Positions 3,020-45,760 of a DNA stretch of 64,000 nucleotides are shown in pieces (the first letter of the stretch is position 1; the number at the start of each line of letters is the position of its first letter). This DNA comes from an uncultured Alphaproteobacteria bacterium (GTDB lineage: Bacteria > Pseudomonadota > Alphaproteobacteria > GCA-2731375). The notes beneath the pieces are model-generated. The model did no database searches. It had not been told where the DNA came from and worked only from the letters and a program-made list of their open reading frames with translations. A program made the position numbers and the translations under genes. The stretch spans positions 62,001 to 126,000 of the forward strand of contig CATOSZ010000005.1 in NCBI GenBank assembly GCA_951812805.1, read 5' to 3'.

Positions 3020-3152
3020 GGCGGCCCGGCTCCTTCCAGGAAAATGATGCCGCAACGTTAGTCGGCCCGGCCGCCGTCTTCAACGGCCTTGAATAACCCC
3101 GCCCGGCGCGGGATCTTGGCGGACCGCCCCTGCGCCCGCGAGGAGATCCGCC

Positions 3153-4395: not shown

Positions 4396-6690
4396 CTACT
4401 TCGTCTCGGCGACGAAGACCCCGTCCCAATCGTCGCCCGGCGGCTCCGCCTCGAAGAGCGCGATGCGCTCCTCGTAGAGATCGTGGAACTCGGCCAGTTC
4501 CGGCGCCATCTCCCGGCAGGTGGCGAGCCACTGCCGTGCCCGGGTCCAGTCCTGGTCGCGGTAGGCCGCCAGCATCCGGTCGTTCGCCGTGGCGAGCTCG
4601 CGGAAGGCGCTGGTCTCGGCGACCTCGCCGTCGCCCATCAGGGTGAAGATGCGGGTCGCCTCGCTGCGCCCCTTGACCGCGATCAGGTCGAGTTCGAGAG
4701 CCGCCAGCTCCGGCACCTGGCGCTCGGTATCCTCACCGATGATGATGCGCACGCCGTAGGTTTTCGATTGTCCTTCCAGGCGCGAGGCCAGGTTCACCGC
4801 ATCGCCCAGCACCGAATAGTCGAAGCGCAGCTCCGAGCCCATGTTGCCGACGATGCAGCCGCCGGTGTTGATGCCGATGCCCACATCCAGGGTCTTGGCC
4901 TCCCGCCCCTCGGCCCGGGCCTCGGCCACCAGCTCGGCATTCAGCGTGGCGAGCTCGGCCTGCATGGCGAAGGCACTGTCGCAGGCGTGGCGGGCATGCT
5001 CGGAATCGTCGAGGGGGGCGTTCCAGAAGGCCATGATGCAGTCGCCCATGTATTTGTCGATCGTCCCCTGCCGCTTCTGGATGATTTGCGTCATCGGCGT
5101 CAGAAAGCGGTTGATCAGCCGGGTCAGGCCCTGGGGATTGTCGCGGAACTGCTCCGAGATCGCGGTGAAGCCACGCACGTCGGAGAACATGAAGGTCAGT
5201 TCCTTATGCTCGCCGCCGAGCTGCAGCAGGTCCGGCTGATCCGCCAGCTGCTCGACGAGATCGGGCGATAGGTACTGTCCCATGGCCCCCTTGATGAAGA
5301 CGCGTTGCTTCTCCTCCGCCACGTGGCTGGCGTATACGAGGTAGATGTAGAGCACCAGGGCCACGGCGATCGGATAGGAAGGGTCGAACAGCAGGAGCTC
5401 GGTCCGCAGGAAATAGACGGCGCCGACGGCGAGCCCTCCGGCGACGGCGAGGAGGGCGACCAGGGTCAACCGCGCGCCCACAACCCCCAATGCAACGACC
5501 AACAGCAGGCCGACGAGGACGGCCGCGGTGTGCTCGTAGGCGCTGGCGTAGGGAGGCCGCACCAGATGGGTATTGTTGACGGCGTTCTCGATCAGATGGG
5601 CATGAATCTCCACCCCCGGTATGTTCGCTTCCAGGGATGTCGAGCGAATATCCTGCAGGCCCTTCGCCGTCGCCCCGACGAGAACGATCTTCTGAGCCAG
5701 TTCGGCGGAGTCCACGCGGCCCGCCAGGATGTCGGTAATCGAGAGATAGCGGGACGGGTCGTGCCGAAGCCCTTTCAGCCACATCCGACCCTTCCAGTCG
5801 ACCGGAATTCGCACCCCCTGCAACACCACTTCGTAGAGACCGTAGGTATCGGTTTTCATCGCGAGGCCTCTTTGCTGCGTCGCGACGCGCAGGACCTCCA
5901 GGCTGAGGGTGGGAACGATCGACTTCCGGCCGACGAGATAGACCGCCGGGACACGGCGGACGATGCTGTCGCGATCGATATCCGGAATGACGACACCGAT
6001 GCCTCGCGCAGCCTCCGTCAGCACCGGCAGGTTCTTGATCAATCCACCGATCGGCATCATGAAGCCTCTGGGATCCTCGCCGAGGCGCGCGACGGCCATC
6101 TTCTTGAGGACGTCCTCGTCTTCCACGGCATTCGGATCGAACTCGGCGAACAGGCCGAGGGCGACGGGATGCTTGGCGATGATGCGTGCGAAGGTGTCGT
6201 CGTAAGACGGCATCTTCTTCAGCGCCTCGACCATCGACTGGCCGAGGCCGGGGGTCCGCTCGGCGATGTAATCCGGCGAGGTCCGGTCCGGCTCGGCGAA
6301 GACCATGTCGAAGCCGACCGCGATCGCCCCCATGCGACGCAGCTTGACGACCAATTGCGCCATCGTCCGCCGGGACCAGGGCCATTGCCCCAGTTCCCGC
6401 AGGCTCTTCTCGTCGATCGCCGCGACCTTCACCAAGGGCGGCTTGGTCTCGACCGGCAGCTGGGTTTGCATCAGGTCGAAGGTCTTGTAGCGCAGCACCT
6501 GCACCGGCGCCGGATCGGCGCCGCGCAGGAAGACGAAACCGACGATCAACAACAGGGCGACGGGACGCCCCTTGCTCGTGCAGGCCCGCCAGACCGCGCG
6601 GCCCCATGACCCGAAGCGCGCCCGCCAGCGCCCGGCCTCGCCCTCTTCGGCGATCAGGTCGGCGGGGGTCAGGGCGGGATCGCCATGCAT
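4396..6690 (-). CDS. CHASE2-domain adenylate/guanylate cyclase (class III)
   Basis: 764 residues. One membrane segment lies near residues 43-56, followed by a long periplasmic CHASE2 sensor up to about 370, then three membrane spans (about 380-455). The cytoplasmic class III cyclase domain begins near residue 490. Metal-binding Asp residues sit in MFSDVRGFT and KYMGDCIMAFW, the latter also holding the purine-contacting Lys. DAVNLASRLE supplies the transition-state Asn and Arg. The enzyme should make cAMP (or cGMP) in response to an extracytoplasmic signal. It starts 4 bp after the HlyD gene, so it is probably co-transcribed with the secretion genes, suggesting control of, or response to, the secreted product. 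Confidence 0.88.
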   Translation of the reverse strand: MHGDPALTPADLIAEEGEAGRWRARFGSWGRAVWRACTSKGRPVALLLIVGFVFLRGADPAPVQVLRYKTFDLMQTQLPVETKPPLVKVAAIDEKSLRELGQWPWSRRTMAQLVVKLRRMGAIAVGFDMVFAEPDRTSPDYIAERTPGLGQSMVEALKKMPSYDDTFARIIAKHPVALGLFAEFDPNAVEDEDVLKKMAVARLGEDPRGFMMPIGGLIKNLPVLTEAARGIGVVIPDIDRDSIVRRVPAVYLVGRKSIVPTLSLEVLRVATQQRGLAMKTDTYGLYEVVLQGVRIPVDWKGRMWLKGLRHDPSRYLSITDILAGRVDSAELAQKIVLVGATAKGLQDIRSTSLEANIPGVEIHAHLIENAVNNTHLVRPPYASAYEHTAAVLVGLLLVVALGVVGARLTLVALLAVAGGLAVGAVYFLRTELLLFDPSYPIAVALVLYIYLVYASHVAEEKQRVFIKGAMGQYLSPDLVEQLADQPDLLQLGGEHKELTFMFSDVRGFTAISEQFRDNPQGLTRLINRFLTPMTQIIQKRQGTIDKYMGDCIMAFWNAPLDDSEHARHACDSAFAMQAELATLNAELVAEARAEGREAKTLDVGIGINTGGCIVGNMGSELRFDYSVLGDAVNLASRLEGQSKTYGVRIIIGEDTERQVPELAALELDLIAVKGRSEATRIFTLMGDGEVAETSAFRELATANDRMLAAYRDQDWTRARQWLATCREMAPELAEFHDLYEERIALFEAEPPGDDWDGVFVAETK

Positions 6691-6694
6691 CGGT

Positions 6695-7984
6695 TCACCG
6701 TTCGCGGAAGGATTCGTGCTTCAGCTTCAGCACCGGTCGCAGCAAATAGTCTATGACGGACTTGGAGCCGGTGTGAATGTCGACGCTGGCCTGCATGCCG
6801 GGAATGATCGGCAGGCTGCCCGCGACATCACCGAGATAGGCCTTGTCCGTCTCGGCGATCACGCGGAAGTAGGCCTGGCCGTTCTGGTCGGAGTTCGCGT
6901 CGGCGGCGATATGGGCCACCTTGCCCTCGAGGCCGCCGTAGCGCACGAAGTCGTAGGAACCGACCTTGACGACGACACGCTGCCCCTCCTCGACATAGCC
7001 CCGGTCGATGGGATTGAGGCGGGCCTCGATCACCAGCTTCTCGTGCGTCGGTACGATCTCCATGATCGGTTCGCCCGGCCGGACCACGCCGCCGATGGTG
7101 TGGTAGCGCAAGTTCTTCACGATGCCGTCGATCGGGCTGGTGATCTGGGTGCGATCGGCCTGCGCCGTGGCCTCGACCATCAACTCACCGATACGGGTGA
7201 TCTCCACCTCGACGTCGCGGATCTCGTCGCTCGCCTGCCGTTTGAACTTGCGGTCGATCTCATTCTCGCGCTCCCGCGCCTCGGCAAGCGCCGCGCGGGA
7301 GCGGGGGATCGAGGCATCGAGCGCTTCCATCTTCTTGCGCAGCGCCTCGACCTCGCGGGTCAGCTGCACATGCTCCATGCGCGAGGTCAGGCCCTTCTCC
7401 AGCAGTCCTTGCGACATCTCGAACCGTTCCCGGCTGTAGCCGAGATCGACCTTCACCGCGCGCCGGTTGGTCTGCAGCTCGCGGGTGTCGAGCTGGCGCT
7501 GGCGGATCTGTTCCTTGAGGACGGCGATCGCGCTCTGCTGCTCGCGCCGGCCGCTCTCGAACTGCTCGCGTTCGCGGCGCAGCATTTCGGGCCGGCGCGC
7601 GGCCTCTTCCGCCGGAAACTCGGGCTCGGAGCCGTTGACCTCGGCGTCCAGGCGGGCGCGGGCCAGCGTCAGGCCGTCCAGGCGGACCTGCAACTCCTCC
7701 CGGTTGATCCGATTGGCCGCGAGGTTGAGGCGGACCAGCGGCTGACCGGCCTGCACCGTATCGCCGTCGGCGACGGTGATGTCCTCGACAATGCCGCCTT
7801 CCAGGTGCTGGATCACCTTGATCTGGCCGACCGGCACGACCTCGCCGTCGGCGATCGCGACCTCCTCCAGCTGGGTGAAATGCGCCCAGCCGACCGCCAG
7901 GACGATCAGGGTAATGACGATCCATGCCGCCCACCGCCAGGTCGGCAGCGGATGCTTGCGGATCATGCCGTCGAGCTCGCTCAT
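6695..7984 (-). CDS. HlyD-family type I secretion periplasmic adaptor
   Basis: 429 residues. It has a short cytoplasmic N-terminus, one membrane helix (about residues 17-35, AAWIVITLIVLAVGWA), then a lipoyl-like half motif (GGIVEDITVADGDTVQAGQPL), a long Arg/Glu-rich coiled-coil hairpin (about 90-260) and the second lipoyl half and beta-barrel (about 270-400). This is the membrane-fusion subunit that links the ABC exporter to a TolC-type outer membrane channel. The ATG at 7984 overlaps the stop of the ABC gene as ATGA, indicating translational coupling. No TolC homologue or RTX substrate is present in the window. Confidence 0.92.
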   Translation of the reverse strand: MSELDGMIRKHPLPTWRWAAWIVITLIVLAVGWAHFTQLEEVAIADGEVVPVGQIKVIQHLEGGIVEDITVADGDTVQAGQPLVRLNLAANRINREELQVRLDGLTLARARLDAEVNGSEPEFPAEEAARRPEMLRREREQFESGRREQQSAIAVLKEQIRQRQLDTRELQTNRRAVKVDLGYSRERFEMSQGLLEKGLTSRMEHVQLTREVEALRKKMEALDASIPRSRAALAEARERENEIDRKFKRQASDEIRDVEVEITRIGELMVEATAQADRTQITSPIDGIVKNLRYHTIGGVVRPGEPIMEIVPTHEKLVIEARLNPIDRGYVEEGQRVVVKVGSYDFVRYGGLEGKVAHIAADANSDQNGQAYFRVIAETDKAYLGDVAGSLPIIPGMQASVDIHTGSKSVIDYLLRPVLKLKHESFRER

Positions 7985-33647: not shown

Positions 33648-35105
33648 ATGGTGGAGAGCGGTCACGGCGCGGCGCGGGCGATCCGACGCTACGACGACGC
33701 CGAGGCCGCGCTCGCCCGTATCGTCGAGATCTACGAGGAAGGCGCGCGCCGGGTCCGCGAGCGCTTCGCGCGCTACGCGGCGGGCGACCGGACCAGCCCG
33801 GGAGACGTCGGCTACTATCCCTATGTCGGCATCACCATCCGGCCGGGCGACGTCAGCACGGATTCCCGTGTCCCCTACGGTGTGCTGTCGGACCACGGCA
33901 CCTACGGCGCGACGCTGACCCGGCCGACGCTGTTCCGGAACTACTATCTCGAACAGCTCGGCCGCCTGATCGCCAACCATGGCCGGCCGATCGCCGTCGG
34001 GATCTCCGACCGGCCGATCGCGCTCCCCTTCGTCGTCGAAGACGCGACCGCCGGGGTCACGGCGGAGGACGTTACCTCGCTGCAGACCCTGTTCACCCTG
34101 CCGGACCTGGCCGCGATCGAGGACTCGGTGGCAAACGGCACCAATGCGCCGCGCGCGGGCGAGCCGAAGCCCCTCGCGCTATTTTCGGCGGAACGTGTCG
34201 ATCTCTCGCTGACCCGGCTGCGGCACTATACCGGAACCGCGCCCGAACATTTTCAACGCTTCATCTTGTTCACGAACTATCAGAGATATATCGATGAATT
34301 TGTTGAATTTTCCCTCGGAGAACTAAGGCGGGATAATGACGACGTCAGCTTCGTCGAACCGGGCGACGTCGTCACGAACCGCAGTGGCGAGACGGTAGGT
34401 GAGCGGCCGCGCCACCTGCCGCAGATGCCGGCCTACCACCTCACGCGCGAGGGTCGCGCCGGCATCACCTTGATCAACATCGGCGTCGGCCCCTCGAACG
34501 CCAAGACGATTACCGACCATGTCGCGGTGCTGCGGCCGCACTGCTGGCTGATGATCGGCCACTGCGGGGGCCTGCGCCACACCCAGCGGCTGGGCGACTA
34601 TGTTTTGGCGCACGCCTATGTGCGCGAGGACCATGTGCTGGACCGCGATTTGCCGCCCTGGGTGCCGGTGCCGCCGATCGCCGAGATGCAGGTCGCACTG
34701 GAATCGACGGTGGCCGCGACGACGGGCCTCAGCGGGCGCAAGCTGAAGACCCGGATGCGCACCGGCACCGTCTTCACCACCGACGACCGGGACTGGGAAT
34801 TTCGCCTGAACGAGCTGGCGGTGCGCTTCAACCAGTCGCGCGCCATCGCCATCGATATGGAATCGGCGACCATTGCCGCCAACGGTTTCCGCCTGCGGGT
34901 GCCCTACGGCACCTTGCTTTGCGTCTCCGACAAGCCGGTGCACGGCGAGCTGAAACTACCGGGCATGGCAAGCGCCTTCTACCGCGAGAGCGTGGGCCAG
35001 CACCTCGCCATCGCCATCCGCACCCTCGACCACCTGCGCGAGGCCGGCGCCGAAAGCCTGCATTCCCGCAAACTCAGAAGCTATGACGAGCCGGCGTTCC
35101 GCTGA
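33648..35105 (+). CDS. amn: AMP nucleosidase
   Basis: 485 residues, the length of bacterial Amn, which splits AMP into adenine and ribose 5-phosphate. The N-terminal substrate-binding domain (about 1-190; YYPYVGITIRPGDVSTDSRVPYG) is followed by a phosphorylase-fold catalytic domain containing INIGVGPSNAKTITDHVAVLRP, MIGHCGGLR, and IAIDMESATIAANGFRLRVPYG. It begins 15 bp after the dioxygenase stop with a poor ribosome site; co-transcription is possible. Confidence 0.92.
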   Translation: MVESGHGAARAIRRYDDAEAALARIVEIYEEGARRVRERFARYAAGDRTSPGDVGYYPYVGITIRPGDVSTDSRVPYGVLSDHGTYGATLTRPTLFRNYYLEQLGRLIANHGRPIAVGISDRPIALPFVVEDATAGVTAEDVTSLQTLFTLPDLAAIEDSVANGTNAPRAGEPKPLALFSAERVDLSLTRLRHYTGTAPEHFQRFILFTNYQRYIDEFVEFSLGELRRDNDDVSFVEPGDVVTNRSGETVGERPRHLPQMPAYHLTREGRAGITLINIGVGPSNAKTITDHVAVLRPHCWLMIGHCGGLRHTQRLGDYVLAHAYVREDHVLDRDLPPWVPVPPIAEMQVALESTVAATTGLSGRKLKTRMRTGTVFTTDDRDWEFRLNELAVRFNQSRAIAIDMESATIAANGFRLRVPYGTLLCVSDKPVHGELKLPGMASAFYRESVGQHLAIAIRTLDHLREAGAESLHSRKLRSYDEPAFR

Positions 35106-35116
35106 GGTATCGATCC

Positions 35117-35560
35117 TCACACGCGCACCACACCGAAGGCCAGAAGCCCCAACCCGATGACCAGGACCATGGCACCGGTGAGCGCGATGACGCTCGGGCG
35201 ATCGCTGTCGCCCGCTCCGGTCAGGACGAGGTCGCTCGGATCGTCGCGCCGATAGACGATCTCCACCACGCTCTTGTCGGCAACGAGGTTCGCATAGAGC
35301 TCGGCGCCGACCACCACGTCGCCTTCGATCTTCTGACCGTCCGCGGCGGTGAAGGCATAGGCGATGCGGGAAATGCTCTTGCCGTTGTCCGCGACCTCGA
35401 CCCATGTCGCGGTCACCTGGGCGGCGACGGCGTGGCCGTTGGCGAGGATGTCCTGGCGGTGCGCCCCGTACCAGATGCCGCTGCTCAAGACGCCGGCACC
35501 GGACAGCGAAAAGACCAGCCCGACCCAAAAGTGCGCTCGACTGCGTATGCGAATCGCCAT
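35117..35560 (-). CDS. DUF3592-type membrane protein
   Basis: 147 residues with two membrane helices, near residues 11-29 and 124-144, flanking an extracytoplasmic beta-rich domain. The middle (HAVAAQVTATWVEVADNG ... YAFTAADGQKIEGDVVV ... VEIVYRRDDPSD) matches the DUF3592 pattern. Function unknown. It is convergent with amn and divergent from the ydbH-like gene. Confidence 0.75.
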   Translation of the reverse strand: MAIRIRSRAHFWVGLVFSLSGAGVLSSGIWYGAHRQDILANGHAVAAQVTATWVEVADNGKSISRIAYAFTAADGQKIEGDVVVGAELYANLVADKSVVEIVYRRDDPSDLVLTGAGDSDRPSVIALTGAMVLVIGLGLLAFGVVRV

Positions 35561-35667
35561 TCCGCGGCCCCCTCTCCGCCACAGGGAAAATATCCTTCGA
35601 CCGGGATAATTCGGCCAATCACGATCCGGCGATATCGCGAACGCGACGGAGGCCGTACTCTTCGCCC

Positions 35668-38600
35668 ATGCGCCGCGCCGCCCTCATCCTGTTCTGCGTT
35701 CTCATCCCGGTTCTGGCGGGCGGAGCGGCTGCGGCCTGGATTTACCGGATCGATCTCGCCCGCATTGCGATCGACGACGGCCTGGCCCGCACCGGGCTCA
35801 CCGCGGCCAGTTATGAAATCGAGCGTTTGGACCTCACCGGCGCGCGGCTGCGAAATGTCGCGCTGGCGGACGGTCTCGCCGGCGAGGCGATCGACGTCGC
35901 CTACGACCTGTCGACCCCCTGGGCACCGCGCCTCGGCGAAATCCGGCTGACCCGCCCCAGGCTCGACCTGTCGGCGCCGGCGGTCCGCGCCCTTTTCGCG
36001 GGCGACGACGAGGGCGGCGGGGACGGATTCGATCCGGGCCCGCTCGCACTCCACGTGACGGGAGGCGAACTCGACTGGCAAAGCCCGCTCGGCCCCCTGC
36101 GGATCGCGCTCGATGGAAAAGCGCACCGCGCCGCGGACGGCACCTACGGCATCGAGACGACCCTGGTTGCCCGGGCGGAACGGGGCCGGGTCGAAGCCAC
36201 GCTCGAGCTTGCCGGATCGCCCGCCGGCGACGTCACGGGCGCCGCGCGTCTTTCGGGAGGTTTCCTCGAGTTCGAACAGGCACGCGTCGACGGCCTCACA
36301 GGTGACATCGGCTTTACTGTCGCGGGCGGCGCCATGGCGGCGTTGCACGTCGAACTGGCGGAGCTGGCGCTCTCCCTCGACGGCGAGCGGGTGGCGCGGG
36401 GGGCGCTGTCGCTCAGCCGGCAGGGCGACATCGTACTCGCCGGGTTTGCCGGCAGCGCCTTCGGTGCCGAGGGCGGAATCGAAGTGTCGGGCATCCCCAA
36501 CCTCGAAGCCGGCCTGATCCGTCTGCAACGCCTGTCGATCGAGGCGCGCGCGCCCCACCACGCGGCGCTCTGGCGCCATGCCGGGACGGCGGCGCCGACG
36601 GCGGGCGCGGTTGCCGTCAGCCTCGCCGGCCATGACCTCAGCCTCGATGTCGCCGCGCTCGGCGCCGCCCCGTTGGCGGCATTGCCGGCGGTCCTGGCGG
36701 ACGGCCAGCTCTCCGGTGTCGTCGAGATCAAGGACCTGGCCCTGCCCGGTCTCACCTCCAACATCTCCGGCGCCGCGAACCTCGACATCGCGGCGCCCGC
36801 GGGCGAGCTGGAGGCAAGCCTCGCCGTGCCCGCCCTCTTCACCGTCGGCGCGATCGACCGGGCCGCGTTCACCGGCTGGACGCCGCCCGCCGATATGCTG
36901 GATGGCGGCGGCAGCCTCGCCATCGCGCCGACACCCGCCCTGCGCCTGCGCCCCTTACGGGACCCGGAAGGCGCGATCTCGGGCCTGGCCCTGAGCGGCG
37001 GCGCGCAACTCTCACTCAGCCTCGGCGCCGGTTTCGCCGTCGAGGCGACGACGAGCCTGGAGGGGCGTCTCGATCAAAACGGTCTGGCCGGCCGCCTCAC
37101 CGCCGCACCGACGACCGCGCGTCTCGACCGATTCTCCGCCGCCGGTCACCGCATGCGGCGTCTCGCCTTCACCGGCGCACTCGGCTACGGGGACAAGGGC
37201 TTCACGGCCGGTGGTCGCCTCAGCGGCGAGTATAAGCCCCGCGTCGCCGCGCTGCCGGACCTCGGCTGGATCGTTGCCCGGCTTCCCCTGGAGGCGGCGT
37301 TCGATGGCAGCCGGTTGACCTTAGGCCTCCGTGCGCCGGGTGACCTGCGCCTGCCGGCGATCCGCCTTGGCGAAAAGCTCACGCTGCCCGCGCCGACGGT
37401 GGTGACGCTGGCCAAGCCGGCGGGCCCGGTCCTCGACCTCGACACAGGCAGCGGACAGTTCGCGTTGAACCTCCCTCTTCGGGCAACGGCCTTCCCCCTG
37501 CAGGTGCGGACGGCCAACGACACGCTGGCGCTGGAGGTCGCCCCGGGTGCGGTCGCCGTCACGTTCGACGACGACGGAAGCCGGATCGCCCTTTCGGGCG
37601 GTGCGCTCTCCCTGCCCGCCGAGGGCGTCTACCTCCAGGGCATCGACGCGGCGATCACGGACCTGGCGACGGCCGAGTTCAAGGTCGGTCAGATCGACTG
37701 GACGGATGCGCCGGTCGAACTGCCCGCGCTGCTCGCCCTCGGCCGCGCCCGGATCGGCGATGAGGACCTGGGCGTCGGCCTCTCCCTGCTCGACGCGGAA
37801 CAGCGCGTGCGTCTCGACGCGACGCTTCGCCATCACCTGGACGAGGCGACGACGGAGGTCGAGGCGACGCTGGTCCCCCTCGACTTCACGCCGGACGGTT
37901 TGCAGCCGGGCGACCTGGCAACGGAGCTGGAGATATTGACCGACGTCATCGGCCAGCTGTCGGGTGGCGTAAAACTGTCGTTGCGGGATGGCGAACTCAC
38001 CGGCACGGGCGTCCTCGAGCTTGCCGATATCGCCTTCGAGACCGAGGCGGCGAGCGTCGACGGCCTCGACGTCCGCTTCGAGTTCGACCGGATCTGGCCA
38101 CCGCGCACCGCACGACCCGCCGTCCTCAGAATCGCGAACGTCGTTTCCGGCGTCGAGGCGAGCGAGGTGAGCGCCGAGTTGTCGCTCGCCGGCGACGCGA
38201 CACGGCCGTTGATTCTCGGCGTCGACGAGGCCCAGGCGACAACCCCGTTCGCCCGGGTCACGCTCGACCCGCTGCGCATCGATGCCACGTCCGGGCGGCA
38301 CGACATGACGGTGCGCTTGAGCGAGGTCGACCTCGCCGCCCTTTTGTCCCGTCTCGATGTCGAAGGGGTCGCGGGCAGCGGGCGCCTCTCCGGCGCGATC
38401 CCGATCACCGTGCTCGAGGACAACTTCACGGTGACGGACGGCCGCCTGGCGGCCGAAGCGCCCGGCGTCATCAAGATTTCCGTCGAGGCGTTGAACCAGT
38501 CGCTCACCGGGACGGCGGAGCAGGTGAAGCTGCTGCTCACCGCGCTCGAGGATTTTCATTATTCGAGCCTGGTGCTGGCGTTGGAGAAACCCGCCGACGG

Positions 38601-38766
38601 CGGCGGTCGATTGAAGCTCTTCATCGACGGCCACAATCCTGCCGTACTCAATGGCCATCCTTTCGATGTGAACATCGATCTGCGGGGCCGTTTCGACGAT
38701 CTTCTGGACACCGCGCTCCGGGCCTATCGCTTGTCCGACCAGGCCATACGCGCTACCGTCAAGTGA
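35668..38766 (+). CDS. YdbH-family AsmA-like intermembrane lipid transport protein
   Basis: 1032 residues. An N-terminal membrane anchor (about 4-25) is followed by a very long beta-rich repetitive region, the expected groove-shaped bridge across the periplasm. The C-terminal part carries the YdbH-domain pattern with IPITVLEDNFTVTDGRLAAEAPGVIK and HNPAVLNGHPFDVNIDLRG. In E. coli, YdbH with the lipoprotein YnbE links inner and outer membranes for phospholipid movement and is partly redundant with TamB and YhdP. Both companion genes follow here, which strongly supports the assignment. The ATG at 35668 is chosen because it begins the anchor. Confidence 0.88.
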   Translation: MRRAALILFCVLIPVLAGGAAAAWIYRIDLARIAIDDGLARTGLTAASYEIERLDLTGARLRNVALADGLAGEAIDVAYDLSTPWAPRLGEIRLTRPRLDLSAPAVRALFAGDDEGGGDGFDPGPLALHVTGGELDWQSPLGPLRIALDGKAHRAADGTYGIETTLVARAERGRVEATLELAGSPAGDVTGAARLSGGFLEFEQARVDGLTGDIGFTVAGGAMAALHVELAELALSLDGERVARGALSLSRQGDIVLAGFAGSAFGAEGGIEVSGIPNLEAGLIRLQRLSIEARAPHHAALWRHAGTAAPTAGAVAVSLAGHDLSLDVAALGAAPLAALPAVLADGQLSGVVEIKDLALPGLTSNISGAANLDIAAPAGELEASLAVPALFTVGAIDRAAFTGWTPPADMLDGGGSLAIAPTPALRLRPLRDPEGAISGLALSGGAQLSLSLGAGFAVEATTSLEGRLDQNGLAGRLTAAPTTARLDRFSAAGHRMRRLAFTGALGYGDKGFTAGGRLSGEYKPRVAALPDLGWIVARLPLEAAFDGSRLTLGLRAPGDLRLPAIRLGEKLTLPAPTVVTLAKPAGPVLDLDTGSGQFALNLPLRATAFPLQVRTANDTLALEVAPGAVAVTFDDDGSRIALSGGALSLPAEGVYLQGIDAAITDLATAEFKVGQIDWTDAPVELPALLALGRARIGDEDLGVGLSLLDAEQRVRLDATLRHHLDEATTEVEATLVPLDFTPDGLQPGDLATELEILTDVIGQLSGGVKLSLRDGELTGTGVLELADIAFETEAASVDGLDVRFEFDRIWPPRTARPAVLRIANVVSGVEASEVSAELSLAGDATRPLILGVDEAQATTPFARVTLDPLRIDATSGRHDMTVRLSEVDLAALLSRLDVEGVAGSGRLSGAIPITVLEDNFTVTDGRLAAEAPGVIKISVEALNQSLTGTAEQVKLLLTALEDFHYSSLVLALEKPADGGGRLKLFIDGHNPAVLNGHPFDVNIDLRGRFDDLLDTALRAYRLSDQAIRATVK

Positions 38767-38821
38767 TCGTGCGTCCGGCTCCGCGTCCGGCGTCACATCG
38801 ACCGGTTCCCTGGAGTTCGCC

Positions 38822-39028
38822 ATGCGCGCAGCCCTCGACCCTCGCCTCGCCATGATCGCACCGCTGGTGTTGGCACTGTCGGTCATGGCCTGTTCGCCGA
38901 CCGTGAAGGTCGAGACACCGACGGAACCGATCACCATCAACCTGAACATCAACCTCTCGGCCGAGGTCGTGCTGAAGCTGGAAGAAGCAGCCCAGGACGA
39001 CATCGCGCAAAACCCGAACGTGTTCTGA
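38822..39028 (+). CDS. YnbE-like outer-membrane lipoprotein
   Basis: 68 residues. The signal peptide ends in a lipobox, LSVMAC, with lipidated Cys24. The short mature part (TPTEPITINLNINLSAEVVLK) matches YnbE, which stacks on the YdbH bridge at the outer membrane. It lies 55 bp after the ydbH-like gene, and its stop overlaps the next start (TGATG). Confidence 0.88.
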   Translation: MRAALDPRLAMIAPLVLALSVMACSPTVKVETPTEPITINLNINLSAEVVLKLEEAAQDDIAQNPNVF

Positions 39029-39399
39029 TGATGAATATCGCTTTGAAACTCCCCGCCCCGGCCCGCTTCTGGCTGGCCCTCCCGCTCCTGATGGCCCTGC
39101 TGTTCGCGCTCTCGCCCTCGCCCGCGTCGGCCCAGTCGCTCGACAGTTATCGCGCCAAAGGGCAGATCGGTGAGCGTTACGACGGCTACGTCATGGCAAC
39201 GCAGAAGAAGCCGTCGTCGAAGATCAAGAAGATGGTCCGCTCGGTAAACAGCAAGCGGCGTTCCATCTACAACAAGCGGGCCAAACAGCAACGCGTGTCT
39301 GCCAAGCAAGTCGGCCGCGTCTATGCCCGAACCGTACTCTCGAAGGCGCCGCGCGGCACCTACTTCCTGAAGGAAAACGGCAAGTGGGTGCGCAAGTGA
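39028..39399 (+). CDS. YdbL-family (DUF1318) periplasmic protein
   Basis: 123 residues. A signal peptide (AR-F-WLALPLLMALLFALS, cleaved near ASA) precedes a basic DUF1318 domain with KAKGQIGERYDGY-like sequence (here RAKGQIGERYDGYV) and VNSKRRSIYNKRAKQ. YdbL is thought to regulate or chaperone YdbH-YnbE. Two adjacent ATG codons (39028, 39031) are possible starts. The 3' end overlaps the next gene. Confidence 0.88.
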   Translation: MMNIALKLPAPARFWLALPLLMALLFALSPSPASAQSLDSYRAKGQIGERYDGYVMATQKKPSSKIKKMVRSVNSKRRSIYNKRAKQQRVSAKQVGRVYARTVLSKAPRGTYFLKENGKWVRK

Positions 39400-40838
39400 G
39401 CACGCCGATCTCGGACGGCTTGATCGTCGTCGCCAAGCGCGACTGCCCGACCTGCACCCTGATCGAGCCGGTCTACCGCCAGCTCGCCGACGGGCCCGCC
39501 GAACTCCTCGTCTACAGCCAGGACGACCCGGCCTTCCCCGATGCGATCGCCCAGCCCATCGACGACCGCGAGCTCGAAGCCTCCTGGCGGCTCGACATCG
39601 AGACCGTGCCGACGCTGATCCGCATGGCCGGCGGCCGTGAAGTCGCCCGCGCCATCGGCTGGCATCGCGGGGAATGGGAAGAGGTGTCGGGCCAGGCCGC
39701 GCTCGGCCCCGCGCTGCCCGAGGCCCAGCCCGGCTGCGGCTCGCGCACCTACGACCCGGGTATGGAGGAGGTGCTGGAACTGCGCTACGGCGAGGCGCCG
39801 ATGGCAGCCCGGCGGATCGAACTCGGCGGCTATGAGGACCCGGTCGAGAGCGCTTACGAACGCGGCTGGAGCGACGGCCTGCCGGTCGTCCCGCCGACGG
39901 AAATCCGGGTGCTGCGCATGCTGAAAGGCACGAAGCGCGATCCGGGCGAGGTCCTGGGCCTGGTGCCGCCGAACCTCGCCGAATGCACCGTCGAGAAGGT
40001 TGCGATCAATGCGGTGATGGCCGGCTGCAAGCCCGAATACATGCCGGTCGTGCTGGCCGCGGTCGAGGCGGCGCTGATCCCCGACTTCTGCATGCACGGC
40101 CTGTTGTGCACGACCTATTTCTCCGCGCCGGTTCTCATCGTCAACGGACCGGTAGCCCAGGCCATCGGCATGAATTCGCGGGAGAACGCGCTCGGCCAGG
40201 GCAACCGGGCGAACGCCACGATCGGGCGCGCCCTGCAGCTGGTGATCCGCAATGTCGGCGGCGGCGTGCCGGGCGGCATCGACCGGGCGACGCTGGGCAC
40301 CCCCGGAAAGTACACCTTCTGCTTCGCGGAGGACGAGTCGAATTCCTGCTGGACGCCGCTCGCGGTCGAGCGCGGCATCGCGCCTGGGCGCTCCGCCGTG
40401 ACGCTGTTCGGCGGCGACGGCGTGCTCGGCTGTTTCGATCAGAAGAGCCGCACACCGGAAAGCCTGACCGCCTCCCTCGCCATGGCGATGAACGCGATCG
40501 GCCATCCGAAGAAGGCGCAGGCGCACGACGCCCTGCTGGTGATCTCGCCGGAGCATCTCAGGACCTTTGCGAACGCCGGATGGAGCCGCAAGGACGTTCG
40601 CGCGGCTCTCGATCGGGCCTCGGAACGCCCGGGCGACGACCTGGTCTACGGCGCGGGCGGCATCGCCGAGGGTATGCCCGAGAGCGTGGCCGGCCAGCGC
40701 CTGCAGAAATTCCGTCCCGACGGCCTCAACATCGTGCGGGCCGGCGGCGAGGCCGGCATGATGTCGGCGATTATCGGCGGCTGGGCCGCGACGGGCGACA
40801 AGGGAAGCCAGATGGTAACCAAGGAGGTGGGCGAATGA
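39396..40838 (+). CDS. Thioredoxin-fold protein, partner of the UGSC selenoprotein
   Basis: 480 residues from a GTG at 39396 that overlaps the ydbL stop (GTGA). A GTG at 39384 would add four residues. Residues 1-105 form a thioredoxin-like domain with an active-site CPTC (Cys17, Cys20) and the cis-Pro region TVPTLIRM. The remainder (about 125-480) is a domain of unknown function rich in conserved-looking Cys: ECTVEKV, AGCKPEY, DFCMHGLLCTTYF, TFCFAED, SCWTPL, GCFDQK. There is no signal peptide, so it is cytoplasmic. Its stop overlaps the UGSC gene start. The pairing suggests electron or substrate transfer between the two proteins; the actual reaction is unknown. Confidence 0.8.
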   Translation: MSTPISDGLIVVAKRDCPTCTLIEPVYRQLADGPAELLVYSQDDPAFPDAIAQPIDDRELEASWRLDIETVPTLIRMAGGREVARAIGWHRGEWEEVSGQAALGPALPEAQPGCGSRTYDPGMEEVLELRYGEAPMAARRIELGGYEDPVESAYERGWSDGLPVVPPTEIRVLRMLKGTKRDPGEVLGLVPPNLAECTVEKVAINAVMAGCKPEYMPVVLAAVEAALIPDFCMHGLLCTTYFSAPVLIVNGPVAQAIGMNSRENALGQGNRANATIGRALQLVIRNVGGGVPGGIDRATLGTPGKYTFCFAEDESNSCWTPLAVERGIAPGRSAVTLFGGDGVLGCFDQKSRTPESLTASLAMAMNAIGHPKKAQAHDALLVISPEHLRTFANAGWSRKDVRAALDRASERPGDDLVYGAGGIAEGMPESVAGQRLQKFRPDGLNIVRAGGEAGMMSAIIGGWAATGDKGSQMVTKEVGE

Positions 40839-41359
40839 GCCAATCAACCGTATTGCTGGACCCGACGGCGGAGACGACGCCGGCGAAACGCCAGCGCAAG
40901 GCGCCACCGGCGGCGCTCGAGGGGCTGACGATCGGCCTGCTCGACATCGGCAAGGCCCGGGGCGACGAGTTCATCGACCGGGTCGAGGAACTGATGGCGG
41001 AACGCGGCATTATCGTGCGGCGCTATGCCAAACCGACCAACACCAAGACCGCCCCGGTCGAGGTGCTGCAGGCGATCACCACGGAGTGCGACCTCGTCGT
41101 CGAAGCCTTGAGCGATTGAGGCTCCTGCACGTCGTGCAGTTTGCATGACATTGCGGATCTCGACTCTCGCGGCATCCCCGGCGGCATGATCGCCACCACG
41201 GCCTTCGAAAAGGCCGCCGAAGCGCAAGCGGTCTCGCTCGGCTTCGAGCCGGGCATCGTCTACGTGCCGCATCCGATCCAGGATCGGACCAACGCGGAAA
41301 TCCGCGCTATTGCCGAGGATGCCTTCCAGGACATCCTGGGCATGATCACCGCGCGCTAG
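40835..41359 (+). CDS. UGSC-motif selenoprotein (Sec at UGA 41117-41119)
   Basis: 174 residues when the TGA at 41117-41119 is read as selenocysteine 95. The frame continues as Sec-GSCTSC, i.e. the UGSC motif, then IADLDSRGIPGGMIATTAFEKAA to a TAG at 41357. Without recoding one gets a 94-residue stub and an orphan 72-residue fragment starting at a TTG. The start is set by a near-perfect AAGGAGG at 40821-40827, 7 bases before the ATG, overlapping the upstream stop. The UGSC family is known from selenoproteome surveys, with Cys in place of Sec in some members; its reaction is not established. The N-terminal half (GLTIGLLDIGKARGDEFIDR) resembles a nucleotide- or cobalamin-fold beta-alpha unit. 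Confidence 0.88.
41131..41149 (+). other. Bacterial SECIS hairpin of the UGSC gene
   Basis: Counting the U of UGA as 1, GTCGTGCA (15-22) pairs with TGCATGAC (26-33), 8 pairs with one G-U, closing a GUU loop at 23-25. The G-U in the loop falls at the same distance as G23-U24 of the E. coli fdhF SECIS. A competing hairpin CTGCAC/GTGCAG exists at 9-23. Folded by eye. Confidence 0.7.
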
Positions 41360-41408: not shown

Positions 41409-42446
41409 ATGAGCGAAGCCTTTCTCACCACCGTCGTCGGCAGCATGCCGAAACCGATCTGGCTGCAGGAACAACTGCCGCTGAACGCCGAGGGCAAGCA
41501 GGTGCACGGCGCCGGCGCCGACTGGCGGTTTTCCGGTGAGACGCTGGACGTGGCACTCGACGACGCGGTGCGACTGTCGATCCACGAACAGCAACACGCC
41601 GGCATCGACATCGTGTCCGACGGCGAGCAGCGGCGGAAGTCCTACCTCACCCACATCACCCGGGCGTTGGGCGGGGTCGACTACACGACGCTCGCCAAGA
41701 AATGGACGCGCAACAATCGCCGCCTCGCGGAGGTCGGGCGCTGCATCGGGCCACTGCATCGCCAGGCGCCGATCCTGGTCGACGACCTGGCCTTCGCGCT
41801 GGCCGAGGCGGACCGACCGTTGAAGGTCACGCTCCCCGGCCCGATGACCATCGTCGACACCCTGGCGGACGAGCATTACGGCGACGAGCGGGCCATGTCG
41901 ATGGCCGCGGCCGAGGCCATGAACGCCGAAGCCCGCGCGCTCGACGCCCTCGGCCCCGCCGTCATCCAGTTCGACGAGCCGGTGTTCTCGCGCTATCCCG
42001 AAAAGGTCGCGGACTGGGGCATCGAAGCCCTGGACGCAGCACTCCGCGGGCTTTCGGCGCGGACCGCCGTGCATGTCTGCTACAGCTATCCCATGCCGGG
42101 CGTGCCGCGGCCGATCCAGGACAGCTACCCCACCATCCTCGCCGCGCTGGAACGTTCCGCGGTGGACGAGTTGGCGTTGGAGTTCGAGGCCTCCCGCCTC
42201 GATCCCGCCCTGCTGTCGCTCTGTCCCTCGAAGACCGTCCTCTTTGGCTGCATCGACAACGGCATCGACGCGGTCGAAACGCCCGAAGCGGTCGCCGACA
42301 AGCTGCTCGCCGCCGCCCGCCACCTGCCGGCGACGCAGATCCAAGCCGCGCCCGATTGCGGCCTGGTCCCGCTTTCGCCGGCCATCGCCCGCGCCAAGCT
42401 CGAGACCATGGTCGCCGGCGCCCGCCTGGCGCGCGAGCGGCTCTAA
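41409..42446 (+). CDS. MetE C-terminal-domain-like methyltransferase
   Basis: 345 residues, corresponding to the catalytic C-terminal barrel of cobalamin-independent methionine synthase without the N-terminal half. The zinc ligands are visible in order: His and Cys in VHVCYSY, Glu in ALEFEASRL and Cys in APDCGLVPL. The N-terminal TTVVGSMPKP and SDGEQRRKSY segments are also typical. Stand-alone members of this kind are often involved in methyl transfer from methylated substrates to a thiol, or in core methionine synthesis. The stop codon lies within the 17-bp target duplicated by the following IS, so the coding sequence is intact. Confidence 0.87.
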   Translation: MSEAFLTTVVGSMPKPIWLQEQLPLNAEGKQVHGAGADWRFSGETLDVALDDAVRLSIHEQQHAGIDIVSDGEQRRKSYLTHITRALGGVDYTTLAKKWTRNNRRLAEVGRCIGPLHRQAPILVDDLAFALAEADRPLKVTLPGPMTIVDTLADEHYGDERAMSMAAAEAMNAEARALDALGPAVIQFDEPVFSRYPEKVADWGIEALDAALRGLSARTAVHVCYSYPMPGVPRPIQDSYPTILAALERSAVDELALEFEASRLDPALLSLCPSKTVLFGCIDNGIDAVETPEAVADKLLAAARHLPATQIQAAPDCGLVPLSPAIARAKLETMVAGARLARERL

Positions 42447-42457
42447 CCACCGCGGGC
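42441..42457. repeat. Target-site duplication, left copy (17 bp)
   Basis: CTCTAACCACCGCGGGC is present here and again at 43872-43888, directly flanking the ISNCY element. It includes the stop codon of the MetE-like gene. Confidence 0.9.
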
Positions 42458-43871
42458 TGTAGGTGACGCGTGAAGTTGCCCGCTTTACGTAGCGAGTGAA
42501 TTGACCGCTTTTGATGATGTTGTCCCTGTGGGGATGTGGTCAAGTCGTAGACTTGTCCACATCCCCACAGGGCGCGGAAGCGAGATGGCGTCGCGATCGT
42601 TCACGCCGCCTCGCTCCGTGAGCTGTTAGCCTCTTCCGTCGGCGGGAAGTCAGCGATGCGGTGAGGGCCCCAGAAGATGGCGATGGCGCCGTCGGGGTAT
42701 TCGTTGAGCCGCACTTTGGTCTTTGCAAAGTGGGGTCTGAGACGCGAAGGCGGGATCTGTAGCCGCCGGCCCTGCCAGTGCACGGTGTTGTCGTTGGCGA
42801 CTTGCCGGGTTTCGCGGCAACAGAGGATATCCCGCCATTGTTCGGGCCGGCACGAGACCCAAGCGGATGTGGGATCCTCTGGCGGCACGGCGAAGCGCTT
42901 GTTGTGGTCGGGGATATAGACCTCGGCGATGAAGCGGTTGGCGAGATCGATGTTGGTGATGCCGGCGAGCGCGAGTTCGTTGACGAGGCGGTCCTGAAGG
43001 GTTCGGAAGAGCCGCTCGGAGCGTCCCCTGGCCTCGGGCGAGTAGGCCGGAATGTGCTCGATGCCCAGCTCGGCCAAGGCGCGGTCGACCTGGGTGAGCT
43101 GGGTCTTGGAGACCTTGCCGCCGGCCTCAGGCGTGTGGAAGTAGTGGCTCCCCCGATCGGTATAGAGGGCGCAGAACAGGCCCTTGGCATGGATCGTCTC
43201 GGCGAGGCCGCGGAAGCTGGAGGCTGTGCCCTCCTCCGCGACAAGGAAGGCCGAGGTGATCTCGCTGGTCGCATCGTCCATGGTCACCACCAAGTCGAGG
43301 GGCGCCGCGCCCGCGAGCCAGGCATGGCTGGAAGCGTCCTGGTGCAGCATCATGCCGGCCATCGGCCGGCGCGGACGCTTGCGCCGGTGCGCGCCACGCC
43401 GCTTGGCCGGCTGGACATGGCCCGAGCGCTGCAGGGCGACACGGGTCGTCGTGTAGCCGAGCTTGTAGCCATGCTGCTCGACCAGCTTCTCGTGGAAGTG
43501 CTTGACCGTGAAGTCACCGTACATCTCCTCCCAGAGCGCTCGAGCCCGCTCCAGCTCGCTCTCATCCGCCCGGTGTGGCGAGGGCTTGCCGATCCGGCCG
43601 TCCAGCAGGCCAGCCGCCCCCTCCTCCCGGTAGCGATCCCGCCAGCGGCGGAACGTCCGCTCGTCCATCCCCAATATCTCGGCAGCCTCGAGCTGGCTCA
43701 GCTCGCGACGCTCGTGACGCGAAAGTATCTCCTCAAAACGCATGATCCGGATCTCCTGACGGATAAGTGCCGGTCCCATCCAAGCCTCCAAAAAAAAAAC
43801 CACTTTGGAGACATCTCAGAACCGGTCACTTCGTGCGCTACATAATCCGGTCAACTCACGCGTCACCTACA
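42458..43871 (-). mobile_element. ISNCY-family insertion sequence (IS1202-like)
   Basis: 1414 bp bounded by inverted repeats TGTAGGTGACGCGTGA (16 bp identical, then imperfect with a second shared GTAGCG). It is flanked by a perfect 17-bp direct repeat. Inside the ends, motifs like GTGAATTGACCGCTTT and GTGACCGGTT recur and may be transposase sites. The long duplication fits the IS1202-like group. The perfect duplication and intact transposase suggest a recent insertion. Confidence 0.9.
42601..43779 (-). CDS. ISNCY family transposase
   Basis: 392 residues from the ATG at 43779, placed 5 bases after GGAGG. A later ATG at 43743 (MRFEEILSRHERRE) is also possible. An N-terminal helix-turn-helix (LSQLEAAEILGMDERTFRRWRDRY) is followed by a basic linker and an rve-type DDE core. 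Its acidic residues lie in MLHQDASSHAW, LYTDRGSHYFH and SPEARGRSERLFRTLQDRL. The C-terminal region has the QGRRLQIPPSRLRP segment seen in this family. A ten-A run upstream of the start lies outside the coding region. Confidence 0.9.
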   Translation of the reverse strand: MGPALIRQEIRIMRFEEILSRHERRELSQLEAAEILGMDERTFRRWRDRYREEGAAGLLDGRIGKPSPHRADESELERARALWEEMYGDFTVKHFHEKLVEQHGYKLGYTTTRVALQRSGHVQPAKRRGAHRRKRPRRPMAGMMLHQDASSHAWLAGAAPLDLVVTMDDATSEITSAFLVAEEGTASSFRGLAETIHAKGLFCALYTDRGSHYFHTPEAGGKVSKTQLTQVDRALAELGIEHIPAYSPEARGRSERLFRTLQDRLVNELALAGITNIDLANRFIAEVYIPDHNKRFAVPPEDPTSAWVSCRPEQWRDILCCRETRQVANDNTVHWQGRRLQIPPSRLRPHFAKTKVRLNEYPDGAIAIFWGPHRIADFPPTEEANSSRSEAA

Positions 43872-43888
43872 CTCTAACCACCGCGGGC
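43872..43888. repeat. Target-site duplication, right copy (17 bp)
   Basis: Identical to 42441-42457 and abutting the right end of the ISNCY element. The rest of the gap to the BCCT gene (43889-44101) is comparatively AT-rich in its first half and probably holds that gene's promoter; no convincing boxes were assigned. Confidence 0.9.
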
Positions 43889-44101
43889 TTGTGGCGAGGC
43901 GCGGAGAACACTAAGATTCTTAAATTCTTGGTAAATAATCGTTAACCGCCTTCTGGCCTTCGGGATAGGGCCACCTCGAGTACCTTGAAATTGTGGATGT
44001 CTATAGTGCGTGCATGAATTCAGACGCGATTGTTCGCCCGACCGCTGACGCATGCTGATCATCGGACGGGGCCTGCACAGCAGCCGGGAGGGGGAAACGG
44101 C

Positions 44102-45760
44102 ATGGCTACGGATAGATCGAAGTTAGTTGCGCAATCGGGGCTATGGCGGGGATTACATCCCGGAATGGGCCTCGCCGCGAAGGGCATGGTCGTCGCCTTC
44201 GTGGTCTTTACGGTTCTCAACGTCGAGTTCGCCAATTCCATCTATACGGCAATACGCGGTTGGATCGAGTCGGCGCTGAACTGGTATTACATCTCGGCGC
44301 TGGTCATCATGATGTTCGTCTGCTTCTACCTGATGTGCAGCCGATTCGGCAGCATTCGGTTGGGCGACGACGACAGCCGACCGGAATTCTCCAATTTTTC
44401 CTGGTTCGCCATGCTTTTCTCGGCGGGCGTCGGCATCGGCCTGCTGTTCTTCGGCATTGCCGAGCCGATGTTCTATTTCGACAATACCAAGCCCTGGGGC
44501 TATCCGAACAATCCCTTCGCCGACCAGGCCATGGTGACGGAAATGAACGAGGCGCGCGCGGTCCATGCGATGCGCGTGACCTACTATCATTGGGGCTTCC
44601 ATGGCTGGGCCGTCTACGTGATGGTCGGCTTGAGCCTGGCCTACTTCGGCTTCCGCAAGAAGCTGCCGCTGACGCTCAGATCGTCGCTCTATCCGATCAT
44701 CGGCGAGAAGATCTACGGCCCGGTCGGCCATGCGGTCGACCTGCTCGCGGTCTTCGGCACGGTCTTCGGCGTCGCCACCTCGCTCGGCCTTGGCGTCTCA
44801 CAGATGGCGGTCGGGCTCAATCACCTCTTCGGCGTCGATCCCGGAACGACGACGCAGCTCATCCTGATCGTGGTGATTTCCATCGTCGCCACCTTCTCCG
44901 CCGTCTCCGGCGTCGGCAACGGCATCCGGATCATTTCGGAATGGAACATCTGGCTCTCCATCGCACTGCTCGCCTTCTTCCTCTTCGGCGGGCCGACGAA
45001 CTGGCTGCTCGGCTTCTTCGTCACGACGACGGGCGACTATCTCTGGAACGTCATTCCGATGGGCTTCCAGATCTTCAATGGTGAAGGCGCTTCGTCCTGG
45101 CAGGGCAATTGGACCATTTTCTATTGGGGCTGGTGGATATCCTGGGCGCCCTTCGTCGGCATGTTCATCGCCCGCATCAGCCGGGGCCGGACGATCCGCG
45201 AATTCATGATCGGCGTCATGTTCGTGCCGACCACGCTCGCCTTCTTCTGGCTCTGCATCTTCGGCGGCAGTGCCATACATGCCGAGTTGACCGCGGCCGG
45301 CGGCGTCGGCACCGCGGGCATTGCCGACCTGGTCCGCGGTTGGAACCTGCCCGCCGCCCTCTACGGGACGATCGAACAGGTAACCGTGCTCGATTGGCTG
45401 AACTGGGCGATGGCGGCGCTTGCGACCTTCCTGCTGGCGACCTGGTTCATCACCTCGTCCGACTCCGGCACCCTGGTGATCACCACCATGCTGTCGATGG
45501 GCGACGACGATCCGCCGCAGAAATTCCGCATCGTCTGGGGCCTCGGCGAAGGTTTCGTCGCGGGGGCGTTGTTGCTGGCCGGCGGTCTCAAGGCCTTGCA
45601 GACCGCCTCCATCGCAGCGGCCCTGCCGGTGAGCGTCGTCCTGCTCCTGATGACCTGGGGCGTCGTGAAATCCTTGCACGAGGATTCGAGCGCGGTGGCC
45701 GCACCGGAGGAGGAGTTCGCCCCCGACGGCACCAGCCTCAGCGGGGAGTTGCGAGCCTAA
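44102..45760 (+). CDS. BCCT family transporter
   Basis: 552 residues with about 12 membrane helices. The family signature GWWISWAPFVGMFIARISRG is complete, and WNVIPMGFQIFNGEG-type residues occur nearby. BCCT carriers import betaine, choline, carnitine or DMSP with sodium or protons, or exchange them. The start at 44102 follows GGAGGGGG. The short C-terminal tail lacks the long osmosensing extension of BetP. A possible metabolic partner is the dimethylglycine/sarcosine-type dehydrogenase at 13028, but they are far apart. Confidence 0.93.
   Translation: MATDRSKLVAQSGLWRGLHPGMGLAAKGMVVAFVVFTVLNVEFANSIYTAIRGWIESALNWYYISALVIMMFVCFYLMCSRFGSIRLGDDDSRPEFSNFSWFAMLFSAGVGIGLLFFGIAEPMFYFDNTKPWGYPNNPFADQAMVTEMNEARAVHAMRVTYYHWGFHGWAVYVMVGLSLAYFGFRKKLPLTLRSSLYPIIGEKIYGPVGHAVDLLAVFGTVFGVATSLGLGVSQMAVGLNHLFGVDPGTTTQLILIVVISIVATFSAVSGVGNGIRIISEWNIWLSIALLAFFLFGGPTNWLLGFFVTTTGDYLWNVIPMGFQIFNGEGASSWQGNWTIFYWGWWISWAPFVGMFIARISRGRTIREFMIGVMFVPTTLAFFWLCIFGGSAIHAELTAAGGVGTAGIADLVRGWNLPAALYGTIEQVTVLDWLNWAMAALATFLLATWFITSSDSGTLVITTMLSMGDDDPPQKFRIVWGLGEGFVAGALLLAGGLKALQTASIAAALPVSVVLLLMTWGVVKSLHEDSSAVAAPEEEFAPDGTSLSGELRA

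Follow-up and report, generated by a model that had tools for sequence, protein, structure and literature searches.

A thioredoxin-fused domain and the selenoprotein UGSC are obligate partners and probably form a thioredoxin-driven selenoenzyme

In an uncultured alphaproteobacterium, a thioredoxin domain is fused to a large C-terminal domain (CTD), and the gene for this fusion is followed directly by the gene for UGSC, a selenocysteine (Sec) protein. Judged by their distribution and covariation in sequence, the CTD and UGSC are obligate partners. As UGSC is related to the Sec-bearing subunit of the glycine and proline reductases, the pair is probably, at a rough estimate of 55%, one thioredoxin-driven selenoenzyme, in which the CTD would bind the substrate, the Sec of UGSC would attack it and the thioredoxin domain would act as reductant, with reductive cleavage of a carbon-heteroatom bond as the likely reaction.

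The locus and the pairing of UGSC with the CTD

Features of the locus are listed in Table 1 by their positions in the window, i.e., the whole stretch of 64,000 nt that was analysed. The thioredoxin-CTD open reading frame starts with GTG at 39396, its start being overlapped by the stop codon of a ydbL-like gene, and the stop codon ends at 40838. The 4-bp overlap with the start of the UGSC gene that was described earlier is found as ATGA, and 7 nt separate the ribosome-binding site of UGSC from its ATG. Upstream (33648-39399) are an AMP nucleosidase gene and a YdbH-like/small lipoprotein/YdbL-like cluster; the stop-start coupling between the YdbL-like and thioredoxin-CTD genes is absent from the other loci examined. 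Downstream (41409-45760) a MetE-like catalytic-domain gene lies directly behind UGSC, followed by an IS-type transposase gene on the opposite strand and a BCCT-family transporter gene; this arrangement is not kept at the other UGSC loci examined. The MetE-like gene (41409-42446) was considered as a pathway partner and rejected, being found in the window and not at the other UGSC loci examined. An Rfam scan of the thioredoxin-CTD/UGSC region gave nothing meaningful.

Table 1. Coordinates of features at the thioredoxin-CTD/UGSC locus in the window.
Feature	Position	Strand	Evidence
Thioredoxin-CTD fusion gene	39396..40838	+	480 aa; orthologues in at least 8 phyla; AlphaFold pLDDT 94.4, pTM 0.91
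Thioredoxin domain, residues 1-108	39396..39719	+	AlphaFold model, Foldseek, conservation
CPTC redox motif, C17-C20	39444..39455	+	conserved in 48/49 (C17) and 49/49 (C20) Trx-fused relatives
P72 (VPT), at the cis-Pro of the thioredoxin fold	39609..39611	+	49/49 Trx-fused relatives
CTD, residues 110-480, no Pfam/NCBIfam family or significant PDB fold match	39723..40835	+	profile, PDB and fold searches
C114 in linker (PGCG), invariant in Trx-fused clade, possible relay Cys	39735..39737	+	49/49; role inferred
C211 (MAGC), conserved almost throughout the CTDs, the divergent d-type excepted	40026..40028	+	49/49 and 11/12
C309 (TFCFAE), conserved almost throughout the CTDs, the divergent d-type excepted	40320..40322	+	47/49 and 12/12
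AAGGAGG, ribosome-binding site for UGSC, within the CTD gene	40821..40827	+	sequence
ATGA, CTD stop/UGSC start overlap	40835..40838	+	sequence
Gene for the selenoprotein UGSC (174 aa, Sec95 included)	40835..41359	+	PF24696 1e-38; NF041046 1.9e-38
TGA codon, Sec95 of the UGSC motif	41117..41119	+	read-through at codon 95; SelB and tRNA-Sec in genome
bSECIS-type hairpin 3' of the TGA	41120..41166	+	-23.1 kcal/mol, z -2.57

In this genome UGSC is a genuine selenoprotein. Its scores lie above the curated cut-offs of both family models (133.6 bits against 25 for PF24696, 131.8 against 125 for NF041046), and the genome has SelB (446.7 bits) and a tRNA-Sec with the anticodon TCA. The apical loop of the hairpin is situated ~20 nt downstream of the TGA at 41117, and a bSECIS-like hairpin shape is displayed by 55 of 58 distinct UGSC genes, compared with ~50% of dinucleotide shuffles. 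In one UGSC gene, that of Candidatus Blastococcus massiliensis (L087:9374-9376), TAG serves as the Sec codon and the SECIS-like hairpin is intact, which is in line with the CUA tRNA-Sec (a UAG-Sec code) reported for the Geodermatophilaceae along with UGSC-motif selenoproteins (PMC5330540). Another UGSC gene (G419:C6:12789-13246) is split into two profile matches (18-66 and 71-170), possibly by a frameshift or an assembly error.

A profile search with the CTD was used to assemble 80 named loci, which come from Alpha-, Beta- and Gammaproteobacteria, deltaproteobacterial lineages, Actinobacteria, Acidobacteria, Chloroflexi, Gemmatimonadetes, Myxococcota and Hydrogenedentota (at least 8 phyla overall); because they were chosen by CTD similarity, they over-represent the clade in which the CTD is fused to thioredoxin (the Trx-fused clade). 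UGSC is present at 78 of the 80: directly downstream at 73, a count that takes in UGSC copies truncated at contig ends, divergently adjacent at 3 and within 5 kb at 2. The two CTD loci with no UGSC in view (L111, L128) are both on 3-kb contigs. All 15 genomes of the source organism's family have UGSC. Among 398 sampled genomes, 5 have both UGSC and the CTD, 393 have neither and none has one alone; the hypergeometric chance of this agreement is ~1e-9 with the window's own genome excluded, a figure that treats genomes as independent, which they are not.

The genome of the window contains eight UGSC genes. Each has the TGA and adjoins, or is fused to, a CTD; there are ten CTDs in total. The distance matrices of the eight UGSC and eight CTD paralogues correlate with r of 0.83, a value reached by 8 of 40,320 permutations. 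Because these paralogues are all from one genome, the species tree is removed as a confounder. The obligate-looking partnership noted in the preliminary description holds in other genomes, co-occurrence with UGSC being essentially complete.

Domains of the two proteins

For the thioredoxin domain (residues 1-108), searches with a single sequence gave weak results: thioredoxins were found in a PDB search at E 0.3, TIGR01068 matched at E 0.24 with 11.6 bits, below its cut-off of 96.8, and a Pfam scan showed no match to thioredoxin. With the AlphaFold model, Foldseek matched thioredoxins across ~100 columns at a probability of 1.00. In addition to the motif residues in Table 1, T19 is conserved in 49/49 Trx-fused relatives and several other positions in 48-49/49. 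Because the motif is conserved among 49 relatives and the model matches thioredoxins, residues 1-108 are a genuine thioredoxin domain despite the weak single-sequence searches, as had been proposed from the CPTC motif and a cis-Pro. The domain has the fold, the CPTC and the cis-Pro of the thioredoxin family, but it is highly divergent, falls below all family cut-offs and is fused; in this analysis it was seen only with the Trx-fused CTD clade.

The C-terminal residues, ~350 in the earlier description and ~370 as delimited here, were described there as having no nameable family and still have none. Pfam and NCBIfam scans, also with 23-30 relatives, matched no family, the CTD profile found no relative among PDB sequences, and fold searches of the PDB with AlphaFold models of the thioredoxin-CTD protein and of a UGSC-CTD fusion gave nothing at E < 0.001 for the CTD. 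Three fold matches below 0.001 obtained with the fusion model are assigned to its UGSC part because they span ~181 columns, the size of UGSC. The best Foldseek matches of the CTD are to class I fumarase (PF05681), at E 3e-3, TM 0.2, rmsd 17 and a probability of 0.4; this family is missing among the best 50 fold matches of the second (UGSC-CTD) model, and hhalign with the genome's own fumarase (E 0.65) gives no sequence support. FtsZ-like matches are weak and come from the UGSC-CTD fusion model only. Both candidates were rejected.

About eight further cysteines had been considered conserved. This is the case only for C114, C211 and C309, and not for C232 and C238 of DFCMHGLLC; the stretch quoted at that time, DFCMHGLLCTTYF, is variable at both cysteines (C232 in 16/49, C238 in 20/49). 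Conservation of C114 is confined to the Trx-fused clade. When divergent CTDs are added to the alignment, C211 and C309 are no longer conserved columns, and in the fused paralogue L017 a Leu replaces C211. Because they are lost in divergent CTDs, C211 and C309 may not be catalytic.

The CTD is larger than UGSC, and its invariant polar residues form a dense set (D160, N205, R278, D296, K305, E312). Together with the weak fold similarity to class I fumarase, this could be read to mean that the CTD is itself the enzyme, a hydratase, hydrolase or lyase, and that UGSC serves solely as a redox carrier or repair factor that keeps C211 and C309 reduced, relayed via the thioredoxin domain. We consider this unlikely: the two cysteines to be served are those that vary among divergent CTDs and in L017, UGSC by contrast shows no variation at its Sec/Cys position or at C98, and similarity to the genome's fumarase is absent at the sequence level. 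UGSC is probably the catalytic half of the pair.

UGSC has been called thioredoxin-like, or probably so, in the accessible parts of a 2008 study (PMC2398784) and of a 2026 review (PMC13188914), the latter giving its role as uncharacterised. In the fused UGSC-CTD model, flavodoxin-like and Rossmann-like folds were matched over a UGSC-sized stretch, and no thioredoxin is among the best 50 fold matches. The predicted fold of UGSC is flavodoxin-like, not thioredoxin-like.

Around its Sec, UGSC is homologous to GrdB and PrdB, which carry the Sec in glycine and D-proline reductase. When 40 UGSCs were scanned, 28 matched TIGR01917 GrdB (best 2.5e-5), 24 sarcosine GrdF, 14 TIGR01918, 13 betaine GrdH and 7 PrdB; the score of the window UGSC, 11.9 bits, is far under the full-family cut-off of 602. 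An hhalign comparison of UGSC with 14 GrdB/PrdB-like proteins covers 72 columns and pairs the two Sec positions (E 7e-4, with a probability of only 26%), and the similarity to GrdB spans only ~70 residues. In a search of 9,221 ORFs with the GrdB-like profile, UGSCs, which form 1.3% of the set, are 8 of the 11 matches at E<=1, and no reversed decoy matched at that threshold. PDB sequence searches with the UGSC and GrdB-like profiles gave no usable relative.

UGSC and GrdB/GrdF/GrdH and PrdB share a UxxC motif with Sec, behind which come a helix and a strand of the GIPT type. Like glycine and proline reductase, the pair has two components, a Sec subunit and a presumed substrate subunit, and as in glycine reductase a thioredoxin would be the electron donor. 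The differences are in size, partner and distribution. With ~174 aa, UGSC corresponds to the Sec domain of GrdB/PrdB alone, the tests made show no sequence relationship between the CTD and GrdE/PrdA, and the carriers of the pair found here are Alphaproteobacteria and members of many other phyla, not amino-acid fermenters. HMMER detected no PF09338 (the GrdE/PrdA pyruvoyl partner) in any CTD scanned, nor was it found in 385 genomes of the class and 16 genomes with the pair, a search with no positive control; a search of the genome for GrdA (PF04723), likewise with no positive control, gave no match. The genome does have four GrdB/PrdB-family matches; the two whose sequence was read, L132 (G000:C8:328150) and L145 (C3:1748973), carry TGA at the Sec position.

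The fluoroacetate reductase FarBE of Cloacibacillus porcorum is a precedent both for many GrdB paralogues in one genome and for a GrdB-type protein linked to cleavage of a bond other than C-N, namely C-F (PMC10838667). It differs in that FarE is a GrdE homologue, with a product predicted to feed the glycine reductase system (PMC10838667), and it has neither a CTD nor a thioredoxin fusion.

Architectures and electron supply

Four architectures were found. In (a), that of the window, a thioredoxin-CTD protein is encoded with UGSC. In the CTD tree all thioredoxin fusions fall into one clade, to which a clade of their UGSC partners corresponds; tips are misplaced only where the CTD of a locus starts at a contig end. 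In (b), the CTD lacks thioredoxin, has a C-terminal tail of the CxxC type (CIDCD, CLDCEPP, CVDGTC) and is accompanied by UGSC. Architecture (c) is a single UGSC-CTD polypeptide with neither thioredoxin nor CxxC tail; one UGSC-CTD fusion protein was modelled by AlphaFold as a single particle with a pTM of 0.91. Architecture (d) consists of a UGSC-CTD gene, a second CTD gene and a thioredoxin-reductase-like gene, an order kept at 8/8 loci from eight genomes. The reductase matches TIGR01292 at 1.8e-69, yet below the cut-off, and keeps the CAFC redox motif. The (d) operons (L019:8323-12184 and L182-L188) are all from one bacterial family.

From architectures (a) to (d), the thioredoxin domain, the thiol tail and the thioredoxin reductase can be regarded as alternative electron-supply parts of the same core. 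It should be noted that some UGSC-CTD fusions have no thioredoxin, CxxC tail or thioredoxin reductase nearby, which counts against a thioredoxin-driven reading.

A UGSC/Unknown_1 fusion was already published in the 2008 Global Ocean Sampling study, where the domain was noted as conserved with Cys (PMC2398784, as far as accessible). Architecture (c) agrees with this fusion, and the CTD is very probably Unknown_1, with the fusions found here corresponding to the published one. The window UGSC is a plain member of the UGSC family. The accessible parts of that literature give the fusion, but neither the obligate pairing with the CTD nor the thioredoxin fusion, the CxxC-tailed and thioredoxin-reductase versions or the kinship of UGSC with GrdB/PrdB.

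Upstream of the UGSC-CTD fusion gene at L017 are two 440-aa ORFs (2407-3729 and 5497-6819), ~3 kb apart and with identical first 60 residues, an arrangement that resembles a direct duplication.

Proposed reaction and alternative explanations

In glycine reductase, a thioredoxin dithiol is the reductant and is oxidised by the enzyme; both glycine and proline reductase break Se-C bonds, and glycine reductase forms a selenenylsulfide (PMC10298544). By analogy, each chemical step of a thioredoxin-driven UGSC-CTD enzyme can be proposed. The CTD would bind and activate the substrate, and the Sec95 selenolate of UGSC would attack it. C98, the Cys of UxxC, would then resolve the adduct to give a selenenylsulfide, which C17 and C20 of the thioredoxin domain, perhaps through C114, would reduce, and the cellular thioredoxin reductase would recharge the thioredoxin domain. 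An earlier proposal, made from the window, was a redox pair with the thioredoxin domain as reductant of the Sec-Cys bond in UGSC. Of the two findings named there as speaking against it, a CTD match to a known enzyme family and a lack of co-occurrence with UGSC in other genomes, neither was obtained; the reductase kept in all eight sister operons, the fusions and the GrdB homology lend support to this, the reduction itself being inferred. The most likely chemistry is the reductive breaking of a bond between carbon and a heteroatom (N, S, O or halogen) in a small organic substrate, and since a GrdB-type protein has been linked to C-F cleavage (PMC10838667), the bond need not be C-N. Each UGSC-CTD paralogue would have its own substrate.

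In the tally of next genes, thiolase is found at 9/63 and SelA at 6/63, with scattered lipid and transport genes. As a guide to function the tally shows no single pathway; beyond UGSC, only SelA/SelB and thiolase recur, in subsets of loci. The genes beside the paralogue pairs encode a CoA-transferase III, MaoC, an amidohydrolase, a luciferase-like monooxygenase and a gamma-glutamyltranspeptidase, and suggest catabolism of varied small molecules, pointing to no single substrate.

A wider proposal, advanced tentatively and as a whole, is that, within the GrdB/PrdB reductase superfamily, UGSC-CTD makes up a second branch that works without pyruvoyl. It would be a widespread family of thioredoxin-powered carbon-heteroatom reductases outside amino-acid fermentation; in it the CTD would be a new fold in place of GrdE, and this genome would hold eight versions, each specific for a substrate.

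The same components would also fit an antioxidant system, with UGSC as a thiol/selenol peroxidase or disulfide reductase acting on peroxides or protein disulfides, the CTD as a scaffold and the thioredoxin domain as electron donor. UxxC, thioredoxin and thioredoxin reductase make up the usual electron chain of selenoperoxidases, and UGSC is grouped with thioredoxin-fold redox proteins in the accessible parts of PMC2398784 and PMC13188914. However, the UGSC model is flavodoxin-like and its relatives are GrdB/PrdB, not peroxidases, and eight divergent paralogue pairs with varied metabolic neighbours argue for many substrates, not for general defence, so that a low probability is given to this system. 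Least probable is metal or metalloid handling (organomercurials, arsenicals, tellurium), in which selenol and thiols would bind or reduce the metal and thioredoxin would regenerate them: the partner is Cys-rich, a cobW-type gene is near some copies and some selenoproteins of unknown function are linked to heavy metals (PMC13188914, accessible part), but the neighbour tallies show no recurrence of mer, ars or metal-efflux genes next to the pair.

With a partner, a likely electron donor and a kinship with glycine and proline reductase, UGSC becomes a testable enzyme with defined proteins, an electron chain and a reaction class. If the thioredoxin-driven UGSC-CTD pair does cleave carbon-heteroatom bonds, a reaction known from clostridial fermentation would reach many environmental bacteria. 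Three UGSC forms (L091, L113 and G287:C6:378247) have no in-frame stop, read CGSC where the motif could be read and adjoin normal CTDs; these natural CGSC forms are useful as Sec-free versions for expression.
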